NCBI RefSeq assembly: GCF_029865925.1 | Contig: NZ_JARXAI010000061.1 | Coordinates: 1-59,798 of the forward strand | Source: Sphingorhabdus sp. | GTDB taxonomy: Bacteria > Pseudomonadota > Alphaproteobacteria > Sphingomonadales > Sphingomonadaceae | Direction: 5' to 3' | DNA: 59,798 nt | Shown here: piece after piece, positions 26,636 through 30,672 of the stretch | How positions within the stretch are numbered: position 1 is the first letter of the stretch | Layout of the letters: the number at the start of each line of letters is the position of its first letter | The notes under the pieces: model-generated | Told to the model about the DNA's origin: nothing | Databases searched by the model: none | What the model saw: the letters and a program-made list of their open reading frames with translations, nothing else | Position numbers and translations under genes: made by a program

Positions 26636-26800
26636 ACCCAAACTCCTTAACAATCCATTAGTGCCGAGCGAGAGCGGGACGCTAAAATTAAACATGTTTT
26701 CCATCCTGTCTCGACCGGGATCAACACGAACGGGAATAATTACAATGCTCTTGGCTGCAAGTTCTGGAAACCGCAACAATTTGCTGGCATGGAGATGCTC

Positions 26801-28162
26801 ATGACCGAATTAGCCGCCATCATCCTCGCCGCGGGCAAAGGCACGCGAATGAAATCCGACCTGCACAAGGTGCTGCATCCCATCGCGTGCCGGCCAATGC
26901 TGATGCACCTGATGGCTTCGGTCGATGCCTTGATCCCGACCAAAAAGGTTGTGGTTGTCGGTAGCGGCAAAAGCCAACTGGAAACCGCTCTGGCGGGCTC
27001 AGCAGAGCTTGCAGTGCAAGAACCGCAATTTGGTACTGGGCATGCCGTACAGCAGGCACGGGGCTCTCTGGAGGGGTTTGAGGGCGATGTTCTCATTCTC
27101 TATGGCGACGTTCCGTTTGTGCCGACTGCAATGATGCAGGCGATGGTCGCGCGGCTTAACGCGCCTGATGCGCCCGCGGTGGTCGTGTTGGCGTTCGAGC
27201 CAGAAAATTCCTCGGGCTATGGCCGCGTAATCGTCGAAGATGGCCGCATCATCAAAATGGTCGAGCAAAAGGACGCAACCGAGGCGGAAAAAGCCGCGAA
27301 ACTGTGCAATTCCGGCCTGATGGCAGTGAAAGCACGCGACCTGTTCTCGCTTCTGGATCGCGTCACCGACGACAATGCGCAGAAGGAATATTATCTCACC
27401 GATATCGTCAACATAGCCAGCGAAGATGGGCGGATTTGCGTGGCTATCATTACCGAGCCCTACAACGTCGCGGGCATCAATAGCCGGGCGCAATTGGCGG
27501 AGATGGAGCAGGCGTGGCAGCAGCGCCGCCGGGTGCAGGCCATGGATGATGGTGCAACCTTAATTGCGCCGGAAACGGTCTGGTTTGCGTGGGATACGCA
27601 GCTTGGCCGCGATGTCCTGATTGAACCTAATGTCTTTTTTGGCCCCGGCGTCAGCATATCCGACAATGCAAAAATCCGCGCAAACAGCCATATTGAAGGC
27701 GCGATAATCGCCAGCGGCTGTGAGGTAGGCCCCTTTGCGCGGCTGCGGCCCGGAACCGTGTTGGAAGAAAAGGCCAAGATCGGCAATTTCGTCGAAACCA
27801 AGAAAGCGCATCTGGGTAAAGGCGCGAAGGCGAACCATCTGACCTACTTGGGCGACGCGATAATTGGCGCGGGCGCGAACATCGGCGCTGGTACCATAAC
27901 CTGCAATTATGACGGATATTTCAAATATCAGACGGTAATCGGCGAAGGTGCGTTCATCGGCAGCAATTCAGCTTTGATCGCACCTGTGAAGATTGGCCGC
28001 GATGCGATTGTGGCGGCAGGCAGCGCGGTATCCCGCGACGTCGCCGACGGCGAACTCCGCATGGTCCGCGCCGAGCAGCTTGTGAAGCCCGGCTGGGCAG
28101 ACCGCTTTCATGACGCGATGCGGAAGAAGAAGGCCGACAAAAAGGCCCTTGATCAAAATTGA
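26801..28162 (+). CDS. glmU: Bifunctional N-acetylglucosamine-1-phosphate uridyltransferase / glucosamine-1-phosphate acetyltransferase
   Basis: Makes UDP-GlcNAc, precursor of peptidoglycan and lipid A, from glucosamine-1-phosphate in two steps. The 453-residue protein has the N-terminal pyrophosphorylase domain starting LAAGKGTRMKSDLHKVLHPIA and the C-terminal left-handed helix with GNFVETKKAHLGKG and NYDGYFKYQTVIG. Start 26801 follows GGAGATGCTC (GGAG six bases before ATG). It is separated from glmS by the two-gene RHH/PIN module and probably shares an operon with it. Confidence 0.97.
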   Translation: MTELAAIILAAGKGTRMKSDLHKVLHPIACRPMLMHLMASVDALIPTKKVVVVGSGKSQLETALAGSAELAVQEPQFGTGHAVQQARGSLEGFEGDVLILYGDVPFVPTAMMQAMVARLNAPDAPAVVVLAFEPENSSGYGRVIVEDGRIIKMVEQKDATEAEKAAKLCNSGLMAVKARDLFSLLDRVTDDNAQKEYYLTDIVNIASEDGRICVAIITEPYNVAGINSRAQLAEMEQAWQQRRRVQAMDDGATLIAPETVWFAWDTQLGRDVLIEPNVFFGPGVSISDNAKIRANSHIEGAIIASGCEVGPFARLRPGTVLEEKAKIGNFVETKKAHLGKGAKANHLTYLGDAIIGAGANIGAGTITCNYDGYFKYQTVIGEGAFIGSNSALIAPVKIGRDAIVAAGSAVSRDVADGELRMVRAEQLVKPGWADRFHDAMRKKKADKKALDQN

Positions 28163-28174
28163 CATGATATCATG
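28163..28174. promoter_or_regulatory. Palindrome upstream of the antitoxin gene, likely autoregulatory operator
   Basis: CATGATATCATG is a perfect 12-base palindrome directly after the glmU stop codon (CATGATATCATG then a TGATAT repeat). RHH antitoxins usually bind such sites upstream of their own operon. It is inside what would be the glmU-glmS transcript. Confidence 0.55.
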
Positions 28175-28195
28175 ATATGAAATCACTATATCGTT

Positions 28196-28468
28196 ATGGC
28201 TAGATTTCTTGTAGATGTTCCGGCGGACGATGTTCGCAAGCTGGATGAAATCGCGAAGCGCGAGGGAAAGTCGCGCGCGGCTGTGTTGCGCGAGGCAGTG
28301 TCCAATTATCTCGAAGAAAGTCGCAAAGAAGGTTTCGAAAAATATTTTGGCCTTTGGGAGCGATATGGTTCAACTGTAGATGGTCTCGAATATGAACGCG
28401 AGTTACGCGCCGAGTGGCCCGACGTTGGCGAAATTGCGTCTCTCAAAAAGAAACGCAGCGCGGCGTGA
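28196..28468 (+). CDS. Ribbon-helix-helix (CopG-type) antitoxin
   Basis: A 90-residue protein with an N-terminal ribbon-helix-helix fold (ARFLVDVPADDVRKLDEIAK, then REGKSRAAVLREAVSNYLEE) and a C-terminal tail that would bind the toxin. It is the expected antitoxin of the following PIN protein and probably represses its own promoter at the adjacent palindrome. It has a four-base overlap with the toxin gene, whose GTG overlaps this stop. Which antitoxin family is unclear. Confidence 0.85.
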   Translation: MARFLVDVPADDVRKLDEIAKREGKSRAAVLREAVSNYLEESRKEGFEKYFGLWERYGSTVDGLEYERELRAEWPDVGEIASLKKKRSAA

Positions 28469-28848
28469 GTGAGCGCTTTTTCGATACCAATATCGTGATC
28501 GACATGCTGCACAATCGGCCAGCGGCATGGGCGGAGGTGCGCAATGTCACCCGCGCATGGATTAGCCGGATGACGTGGATCGAAGTTATGTCCGGCGCTC
28601 CCGATGATGCGGCGACCGAAACGGAACAATTTTTGCGCTTCTTTGCAATGAGTGAAATCGACGAGGAAATTGCTAGGCGCGCCGCTGTGTTGCGGCAGCA
28701 GCGCACGTCATTAAAATCCCCGTACGCCGTGATCCTCGCCTCGGCGCAGGTGTCGGGGCGCATACTCGTTACACGAAATACGAAGGATTTCCCGCCAGAG
28801 ATGCCGGGTATTAGGGTCCCCTACAAAGCAGATTGGGAAACAAAATAA
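28465..28848 (+). CDS. PIN-domain protein, VapC-like toxin with one catalytic Asp replaced
   Basis: A 127-residue PIN domain, the ribonuclease fold of VapC toxins, started at GTG 28465. The first acidic residue is Asp7 in FFDTNIVIDML, the second Glu40 in MTWIEVMSG and the last Asp108 in TRNTKDF. The third position, normally Asp in DAxIAATA, is Tyr87 (KSPYAVILASAQ). Loss of one metal ligand could reduce or abolish activity, or shift metal use. The gene abuts the glmS ATG with no gap, so a ribosome reading it may directly re-initiate at glmS. The antitoxin-toxin order and overlap are normal for TA modules. Confidence 0.87.
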   Translation: MSERFFDTNIVIDMLHNRPAAWAEVRNVTRAWISRMTWIEVMSGAPDDAATETEQFLRFFAMSEIDEEIARRAAVLRQQRTSLKSPYAVILASAQVSGRILVTRNTKDFPPEMPGIRVPYKADWETK

Positions 28849-30672
28849 ATGTGCGGAATTATCGGAATTGTTGGCAAATCACCCGTCTCGGACCGGCTGG
28901 TCGATGGGCTGAAGCGGATGGAGTATCGAGGCTATGACAGTGCCGGTGTCTGCACTGTGTTTGATGGCCAACTGGTGCGTCGTCGCGCGGAGGGCAAGTT
29001 GGCCAATCTCGTCAACGTCCTAAAAACCGATGACGCTGCGGGTAACATAGGCATCGCGCACACCCGCTGGGCGACGCATGGCGCGCCTACGACGAGCAAC
29101 GCGCATCCGCATGCCTCCGGCGAAGTGGCTTTGGTCCACAATGGTATCATCGAAAATTTCAAGCAGTTACGTGACGAACTGACCGCGCGGGGCCGGACGT
29201 TTGAAAGCGAAACCGATACCGAGGTTGTTGCGCATCTTGTCTCCGAACAGGTTGAGGCTGGCCATGCACCCGCCGATGCGGTGAAGGTTGTGCTCCCCCG
29301 CTTGCGCGGCGCCTTTGCGCTGGCGATTGCGTTTCGGCAATTCCCGGATTTCCTGATCGGCGCACGGCTGGGCAGCCCGTTGGTTGTGGGTTATGGCGAT
29401 GGCGAAACCTATCTGGGTTCCGACGCTCTCGCTCTTGCGCCACTGACGCAGAGGATTGCCTATCTGGAGGAAGGCGATTGGGTAATCGTCACGCGCGGTG
29501 GCGCGCAGATTTTCGATAAAGACAACACTTCGGTGGAACGCGAAGTGACCATATCGGGTGTATGCGCCGCGCAGATCGAAAAGGGCAATTACCGCCATTA
29601 TATGCAGAAAGAGATTTTTGAGCAGCCCATTGTGGTCGCGCAAACACTCTCAAGCTACATTCGTCCACTGGAACAGACCGTTGCCTTGCCGCAGATGGAT
29701 TTCGACTTGGCGGGCGTAAAGCGCATTACCATAGTTGCCTGCGGAACCAGCTATTATGCCGGCATGGTCGCAAAATACTGGTTCGAAACCTTCGCCCGCG
29801 TGCCCGTCGATATCGATGTTGCGTCGGAATTCCGTTATCGCGCCCCCGTGTTGGAGGAAGGCGGCCTTGCGCTATTCATATCCCAATCGGGCGAGACCGC
29901 AGATACGCTGGCGGCGTTGCGCCATTGCAAGGAAAACGGCCAGACTATCGCGGTTGTCGTCAACGTGCCGACATCGAGCATGGCGCGCGAGGCGGACCTT
30001 TTGTTGCCCACGCATGCGGGCCCCGAAATCGGTGTTGCGTCGACCAAGGCGTTTACCTGCCAACTTGCGGTTCTCGCTGCGCTGGCAGCACATCTGGCGC
30101 TCGTTAAAGGCAAGTTGAGCGCTGAGGAAGAACGTGCAATTGTCCGGCATCTTATTGAGGCGCCAGCAGCGCTCAACGCCGCGCTGGCGCATGATGATGA
30201 CATTGCCGCTATGGCACACTTGATCGCGCCCGCGCGCGACGTGCTCTATCTTGGTCGTGGCCCGGACTATCCGTTGGCGATGGAAGGCGCGTTAAAGCTG
30301 AAGGAAATCAGCTACATTCATGCGGAAGGTTATGCCTCAGGCGAAATGAAGCATGGGCCAATCGCGTTAATCGATGAGGCGGTGCCCGTCATCGTTCTTG
30401 CTCCAAGTGGACCGTTGTTCGAAAAAACCGTTAGTAACATGCAAGAAGTCATGGCGCGGGGCGGCAAGGTTGTTTTGATCTCCGATGCCGAAGGGATTGC
30501 CAAAGCAGGCGAGGACTGCCTCGCCACCATCGAAATGCCGACCGTCCATCCGCTCATTGCGCCATTGGTCTATGCCGTGCCCGTCCAGTTGCTTGCTTAT
30601 CATGTGGCGTGCGCCAAGGGCACGGATGTGGACCAACCACGCAATCTTGCAAAGTCTGTTACAGTGGAGTGA
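28849..30672 (+). CDS. glmS: Glutamine--fructose-6-phosphate aminotransferase (isomerizing)
   Basis: First step of amino-sugar synthesis: forms glucosamine-6-phosphate from fructose-6-phosphate and glutamine. The 607-residue enzyme starts with the nucleophile Cys2 (MCGIIGIVG) of the N-terminal glutaminase, and has two SIS isomerase domains with ACGTSYYAGM and SGETADTLAALRH. It ends DVDQPRNLAKSVTVE, the standard tail with catalytic Lys. Start directly abuts the PIN gene's stop with no gap. No glmS ribozyme is seen upstream; control would be through the TA-containing operon. Confidence 0.97.
   Translation: MCGIIGIVGKSPVSDRLVDGLKRMEYRGYDSAGVCTVFDGQLVRRRAEGKLANLVNVLKTDDAAGNIGIAHTRWATHGAPTTSNAHPHASGEVALVHNGIIENFKQLRDELTARGRTFESETDTEVVAHLVSEQVEAGHAPADAVKVVLPRLRGAFALAIAFRQFPDFLIGARLGSPLVVGYGDGETYLGSDALALAPLTQRIAYLEEGDWVIVTRGGAQIFDKDNTSVEREVTISGVCAAQIEKGNYRHYMQKEIFEQPIVVAQTLSSYIRPLEQTVALPQMDFDLAGVKRITIVACGTSYYAGMVAKYWFETFARVPVDIDVASEFRYRAPVLEEGGLALFISQSGETADTLAALRHCKENGQTIAVVVNVPTSSMAREADLLLPTHAGPEIGVASTKAFTCQLAVLAALAAHLALVKGKLSAEEERAIVRHLIEAPAALNAALAHDDDIAAMAHLIAPARDVLYLGRGPDYPLAMEGALKLKEISYIHAEGYASGEMKHGPIALIDEAVPVIVLAPSGPLFEKTVSNMQEVMARGGKVVLISDAEGIAKAGEDCLATIEMPTVHPLIAPLVYAVPVQLLAYHVACAKGTDVDQPRNLAKSVTVE

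Follow-up and report, generated by a model that had tools for sequence, protein, structure and literature searches.

A VapBC-like toxin-antitoxin locus probably docked and entrenched before glmS in many Sphingomonadaceae, with toxin types swapped in place

Many Sphingomonadaceae carry a VapBC-like locus directly in front of glmS, and we consider it likely that its promoter also serves glmS, that its types are swapped between species and that the locus has become entrenched at this address. The copy analyzed here in detail lies in the window, the whole stretch of 59,798 nucleotides from a Sphingorhabdus sp. contig. The swapping of alleles is the most unusual feature of the locus and was absent from the first-pass annotation of this DNA, which had placed a ribbon-helix-helix (RHH) antitoxin gene and a PIN-domain gene between glmU and glmS.

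Open reading frames and Pfam matches confirm this gene order on the forward strand. It starts with glmU (26789..28162; bifunctional UDP-GlcNAc pyrophosphorylase/GlcN-1-P acetyltransferase; Pfam Hexapep and NTP_transf_3), continues with the CopG/VapB-like antitoxin of 90 aa (28196..28468; RHH_1, E 4.8e-10) and the VapC-like toxin (28465..28848; PIN, E 1.3e-10), both exceeding the gathering score, and ends with glmS (28849..30672; glutamine-fructose-6-phosphate aminotransferase; SIS and GATase_6). The junctions are also as first described: the antitoxin stop and the toxin's GTG start at 28465 share the four bases GTGA (28465..28468), an overlap length found in 125 of 166 module loci, and the toxin stop TAA (28846-28848) touches the glmS ATG at 28849. 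In profile searches the two proteins match the two chains of a solved complex, the antitoxin the CopG chain (7by2/7by3; PDB 7by2 chain A, E 4.3e-18) and the toxin the VapC chain (7by2 chain B, E 1.1e-30). Two features that define VapBC systems are thus present, a PIN-domain toxin and a small DNA-binding antitoxin gene directly upstream that overlaps it. Named NCBIfam subfamilies were not reached, neither for VapC (best 30.4 bits, curated cut-off 140) nor for VapB (23.3 bits against 60); the best NCBIfam model for the antitoxin is RelB-like (24.2 bits against 50), and PADLOC gave no match. Judged by its genes and its position, the window pair is a VapBC-like type II toxin-antitoxin system and not a random insertion.

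The position is kept in many relatives. Within the genus, 28 of 30 fetched glmS loci, the window's own included, have the full pair directly upstream; of the other two, one retains a remnant (L005, genome G017) and one nothing (L032, genome G035). Two additional congeners differ as well, G030 with the pair and G013 without, and in G035 and G013 glmS is present with no pair within 1.5-2 kb upstream. A search with the PIN protein over 296 genomes of the order yielded 70 matches in 69 positive genomes, 68 of which have a single match. Fifty of these matches were fetched: glmS follows a full pair in 44 and a remnant in two (L081, L082), and four have no glmS alongside (L075, L078, L079, L080). A scan of named genomes, in which the best 80 out of 325 relatives were kept, places the match within 160 nt of glmS in 78; the exceptions are a stretch that stops 50 bases past the match (L232) and one that shows no glmS (L277). 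The genera with a match include Sphingorhabdus, Sphingobium, Novosphingobium, Sphingopyxis, Sphingomonas, Altererythrobacter, Croceibacterium and Blastomonas. The varied genomic sites of a randomly inserting mobile pair are not what is found, with 46 of 50 fetched loci and 78 of those best 80 named loci before glmS. One 45-base match elsewhere in the window's genome (L002, contig C5) lies, by eye, in a polysaccharide deacetylase-like frame and was set aside as chance and not a second copy. A side observation concerns L225, deposited as Actinobacteria bacterium 21-64-8, whose sphingomonad-like glmU-RHH-PIN-glmS stretch makes it probably misbinned or mislabelled.

An even sample of the family gives a measure of how dispensable the pair is. 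It covered 122 of 129 genomes (G167, G326, G336, G347, G348, G353 and G368 were left out; L122 and L152, which could not be oriented, are included in the 122). The full adjacent pair occurs in 36, a pair about 0.5 kb away from glmS in one (L124) and a broken one in three (L082, L121, L130), and 80 have no PIN profile match in the fetched stretch of 1.5-2 kb upstream. Congeners without the pair exist, and no more than 36 of the 122 family genomes have it complete and adjacent, so the pair is dispensable. The first-pass annotation had proposed to compare the glmU-glmS spacing in close relatives, and the comparison finds the pair conserved in the genus and absent from all 18 genomes sampled from other families of the order. 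There the glmU match ends at most 65 nt from glmS in 17 of 18, which suggests that the glmU-glmS order is the older state and that the pair probably entered it later; a loss of the pair from the outgroups is less likely. Two observations describe the surroundings. When the nearest genes upstream of glmS in pair-free genomes were clustered, the largest cluster held 11 loci (L098-L101, L104, L106, L146, L148-L150, L153), which have in common a gene for a membrane protein of about 300 aa, EamA-like by eye, directly upstream of glmS. In part of the genus (L004, L006, L011, L015 and others) a second hexapeptide-repeat gene lies between glmU and the operator, and its product of about 207-210 aa is 31-35% like a C-terminal part of GlmU.

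The palindromic operator attributed to the pair in the first-pass annotation appears to be real, with repeated half-sites at the putative promoter and a match to a consensus. In the window this promoter/operator, ttgacatgatatcatgatatgaaatcactatatcg, spans 28159-28193 on the forward strand, overlaps the glmU stop and contains TTGACA and GATATC half-sites. Almost every copy has a conserved 35-base block, TTGACATGATATCATGATATGATATCAGTATATCA, ahead of its antitoxin gene, with no conservation over the preceding 20 bases. The consensus is fitted at 24 or more of 35 positions by 141 of 149 distinct module sequences, the window scoring 32, and the top score among 60 shuffled stretches was 21. At position 23 (28181) the window departs, alone among the 141 copies, from a second half-site that is otherwise invariant. 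A search for the 21-base operator core with at most two mismatches found it in 30 of 61 genomes, where every match lies about 0.6-1.6 kb upstream of glmS, with coordinates matched by eye, and none elsewhere; the reversed core gave no match. TTGACA would fit a -35 box with a weak matching -10, and a promoter scan of 27900-29000 returned no sigma-70 site by its rule. As the block reaches almost to the antitoxin ATG, a leaderless antitoxin mRNA is possible. A glmS ribozyme, a riboswitch or another listed leader RNA was rejected, since Rfam gave no match upstream of glmS in 27900-29100 up to E 1.

How closely is glmS tied to the module in its expression? Of 168 loci (146 distinct PINs), 165 have a gap of -1 to 21 nt between the PIN gene and glmS, and the other three have gaps of 30, 135 and 144 nt. 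Particularly informative are loci in which the nearest upstream ORF of at least 80 aa runs on the opposite strand. There are nine with an opposite-strand nearest upstream ORF, three of which were tested against Pfam and matched, the other six resembling chance frames or being too short to assess. The three (L025, L219 and L264, in this order) have divergent genes for a TPR protein, a type II/IV secretion ATPase and a family 2 glycosyltransferase. This orientation leaves no read-through from glmU, so that transcription of glmS would have to begin either within the module or in the stretch of 30-200 bases ahead of it. Their operators agree with the consensus at 35, 30 and, in L264, just 20 of 35 ungapped positions. 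It is very probable that the pair and glmS are transcribed as a single unit from a promoter and operator of their own. We have strong confidence in co-transcription of module and glmS and moderate confidence in autorepression of glmS via the module operator. The earlier placing of the pair in the transcript for UDP-GlcNAc synthesis is supported for the unit shared with glmS, and read-through from glmU is excluded in these three loci.

Translational coupling from the PIN gene to glmS is plausible. A general dependence of glmS translation on reading of the toxin, as first proposed, is not borne out, given the gaps of up to 144 nt and the broken PIN genes before glmS in five loci (L005, L081, L082, L121, L130). 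All five broken genes keep at least their last 43-68 codons beside glmS; the 5' part is missing in four and the frame is broken in L121. The retained toxin 3' ends may reflect chance, or that end may be used for glmS translation. At four-fold sites, third-base identity amounts to 0.49-0.50 over PIN codons 106-122 and to 0.32-0.51 elsewhere in the gene; in diverged pairs it is 0.49 at the 3' end against 0.32-0.43, and glmS itself shows 0.49-0.53. As the rise in the diverged pairs reaches the level of glmS and no more, it was not taken as a cis-acting constraint. Open frames of 735-779 aa tabulated for some PIN matches (e.g. G170, G212) raised the possibility of PIN-GlmS fusions, which was ruled out in L062-L066, where the PIN frames end before glmS on the fetched DNA.

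The toxins at this address fall into distinct types that follow their hosts poorly. Clustered at a chosen threshold of 68% identity, residues 1-92 of the PIN proteins from 124 loci fall into 17 groups; the window's own, type 2, is present in further genera as well (L036, L037, L209, L213). Exchange is best seen between close hosts: ten of 304 different-type pairs of congeners have glmS proteins at least 97% identical over the first 230 aa. Across these ten pairs, identity is 98.0% in glmS, 77.8% in the DNA-binding part of the antitoxin (codons 1-37) and 79.3% in PIN residues 93-120, and it falls to 34.5% in the antitoxin tail, 49.5% in PIN residues 1-50 and 44.5% in residues 51-92. On these identities by part, codons 38-90 of the antitoxin are the presumed toxin-binding tail, exchanged together with the toxin. 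Conversely, in 346 same-type pairs of a genus locus with a distant locus, PIN residues 1-50 and 51-92 are 68.8% and 72.4% identical and glmS 80.9%; for type 2 alone (64 pairs) the values are 83% in the PIN parts and 80.1% in glmS. Genome copies were removed from these cross-genus identities, which were restricted to glmS below 90%.

Thirteen loci whose genomes duplicate, or probably duplicate, others in the set were picked out by hand and excluded from the Mantel correlations and from the glmS tree. The antitoxin tail correlates closely with the toxin (r 0.74 for 111 loci, 0.89 for 28 of the genus); the correlation of glmS with the toxin (0.15 and 0.34, respectively) is weak yet above nearly all permutations. 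A glmS tree built on 108 rows requires at least 52 type changes, against a minimum of 14 and a shuffled mean of 64.7, and none of 200 shuffles was as low; the types are not fully random on this tree. Within the genus, 15 changes against a shuffled 16.6, with 40 of 200 shuffles as low, amount to a scatter like that of shuffled labels. A single clade for the window's type on the glmS tree, calculated as a quick tree, was rejected with a p-AU of 1.2e-10. Read together, these comparisons indicate that antitoxin tail and toxin change jointly between distant types and that operator and glmS stay.

Crossovers can also fall inside genes. L008 has a toxin whose body is type 2 and whose end and junction are those of other loci, and an antitoxin DNA-binding part unlike that of congeners with the same tail is common to the window and L004. 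In four loci (L014, L015, L006, L280) a first antitoxin, complete, deleted or truncated, precedes the present pair; these extra genes are relics of previous occupants. Such a pattern brings to mind an anti-phage or competition locus under diversifying selection, in which types would differ in RNA target and rare types would be favoured. The few types common to several genera, the constraint within types, the co-exchange of toxin and antitoxin tail and the resemblance of the relic antitoxins to orphan immunity genes speak for it. PADLOC found no match, however, and the glmS address would be left unexplained, so that we regard defence or competition as unlikely.

The module is under purifying selection, as judged from substitution ratios, which are rough for single comparisons because of saturated dS (nan or above 1). 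Within types, dN/dS of the PIN gene is 0.01-0.12 in 13 of 15 pairs, two being saturated, against 0.02-0.13 for glmS, and six control pairs with intact acids give 0.11-0.25. These intact acids are the four presumed active-site positions, which we assigned by the PIN motif and which include 28723..28725. All four are present in 121 of 146 distinct PINs, and 25 are without at least one: the Asp of the third position is kept in 129 and absent in 17, that of the fourth is absent in eight, with one PIN devoid of both, and the Glu is absent in one. In a Bosea VapC, alanine at any of the four acids abolished toxicity, according to an excerpt of PMC8522696. Some acid-lacking groups are nevertheless strongly constrained, with dN/dS of 0.009-0.039 (L214-L216) and 0.049 (L073/L262) or no amino-acid change against ten silent ones (L039/L040); in the remaining groups values of 0.09-0.26 resemble the intact controls. 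This constraint supports either functions of the complex beyond RNA cleavage or a site that is altered and still working.

The ratios also bear on the view of the pair as a neutral hitchhiker, a mobile toxin-antitoxin pair that landed by chance and whose link to glmS is polarity only, a view argued for mazEF and other pairs within E. coli operons. Toxin-antitoxin pairs within housekeeping operons are known, with the pair-free form thought functional, in the section of PMC7167474 concerned; the nearest matches in a plasmid collection are VapBC systems of Rhizobium plasmids (48%), and there is decay in the window with remnants elsewhere. A hitchhiker should, however, occupy several sites, yet 68 of the 69 positive genomes have a single match and the operator pattern occurs only upstream of glmS. 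The within-type and control dN/dS are low, and the phage records contained no match, leaving a phage origin without support. We judge neutral hitchhiking to be quite improbable.

The window's own copy illustrates both exchange and decay. Compared with G006, dS is 0.25 for the RHH gene, 0.18 for the PIN gene and 0.70 for glmS, and the raised identity runs from the operator to the glmS ATG. The lower values of the module imply that it was common to the window and G006 more recently than glmS. At 28723..28725, the presumed third catalytic acidic position, the window toxin has a tyrosine, unique among the 146 PINs; with three of four acids it deviates from the four conserved active-site acids of VapBC toxins. 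All six amino-acid differences to the G006 toxin fall on the window branch and none on the G006 branch, set against silent changes of about five and about nine, respectively, by an approximate assignment (hypergeometric p 0.012). Antitoxin amino-acid changes number two on the window branch and four on that of G006, with two unassignable, so that decay is visible in the toxin only. The tyrosine, the unique operator change and the one-sided toxin changes lead us to read the window toxin as probably decaying and its nuclease activity as probably lost; with the genome in 103 contigs, the tyrosine and the operator change could also stem from assembly error. Intact copies of the module exist in relatives.

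A rival reading is a dedicated glmS regulator, in which RHH-PIN autorepression would set glmS transcription and tie precursor supply to antitoxin stability, with the nuclease secondary. One dedicated operator site upstream of glmS agrees with this reading, as do the 25 PINs short of an acid with very low dN/dS in some groups, the loci L082 and L130, where an antitoxin and a scrap of PIN gene stand before glmS, and the Sulfolobus VapB14, which regulates beyond toxin neutralisation in the portion of PMC10127717 that describes it. Yet 121 of 146 PINs retain the four acids, the swapping of specificity would be needless for a mere regulator, relatives without the pair retain glmS, and the window operator is itself changed. 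A dedicated regulator remains a real possibility that we lean against; it ranks next after an entrenched, allele-swapping VapBC, and dispensability and swapping oppose regulation as the whole story. The earlier suggestion that the toxin-antitoxin state controls UDP-GlcNAc supply is conjectural; the pair-free G035 and G013 speak against its necessity, and the window toxin is probably inactive.

The entrenched, allele-swapping locus that we favour would work as follows. The autoregulated promoter/operator of the module would also read glmS. Homologous recombination at the conserved outer parts, namely the operator, the DNA-binding part of the antitoxin, the toxin 3' end and glmS, would swap the inner part, antitoxin tail and toxin, between species, so that a few types circulate largely independently of host phylogeny. 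Entrenchment would be the likeliest reason for the glmS address, because recombination comes easily next to an essential gene that is conserved, and losing the pair cleanly would take the promoter of glmS with it; we place moderate confidence in this explanation. In the window, the nuclease of the toxin would probably be lost and the transcription unit would remain. A more far-reaching version, which we put forward tentatively and with some doubt, is that this VapBC permanently controls the transcription of an essential cell-wall gene, that its specificity is polymorphic by inter-species exchange, much like an incompatibility locus, and that its dead alleles are kept for glmS regulation.

The locus is a natural setting in which to ask why bacteria retain toxin-antitoxin pairs on their chromosomes. 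One address with several exchangeable types, copies both intact and decayed, and close relatives free of the pair allow a direct comparison of selfish, regulatory and defensive explanations. If the toxin-antitoxin promoter does read glmS, antitoxin turnover would bear on the entry into cell-wall precursor synthesis, a step with no regulator known to us in sphingomonads.

Polymorphic toxin/immunity loci are characterized by conserved ends, a variable specificity part and orphan immunity genes. The locus before glmS resembles them in its conserved ends, variable specificity part and relic antitoxins and differs in that its proteins are intracellular type II toxin-antitoxin proteins in which no delivery domain was seen. 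VapBC systems, toxin-antitoxin pairs in housekeeping operons and VapB antitoxins with wider regulation (PMC10127717) are already known. New would be a glmS-docked locus that is polymorphic and whose types are swapped in place; no report of a glmS-docked or type-swapping VapBC locus was found in the open-access literature, and glmS is not mentioned in the main text of PMC2701414 as far as it was accessible. The solved VapBC with a CopG/RHH antitoxin (PDB 7by2/7by3) is like the window pair in both proteins by profile, whereas the locus described here is set apart by its fixed position before glmS, its near-invariant operator found only there and a toxin and antitoxin tail that are exchanged between species. 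The CopG/VapC pair of Rhizobium etli plasmid p42f has a PIN protein 47.9% identical, the antitoxin first with an overlap of seven bases, and a GATATC motif upstream (L283, bases 2201-2300), which suggests that the operator type may predate docking at glmS; in contrast to the glmS-docked pairs it is plasmid-borne, and none of the nine features annotated in the stretch is glmS. In Escherichia coli, mazEF lies between relA and mazG and ccd between folA and apaH, likewise toxin-antitoxin pairs within a housekeeping gene order as outlined in part of PMC7167474. Unlike these, a single toxin-antitoxin family here holds one address over many genera, followed by glmS with little or no gap and with its types swapped in place.
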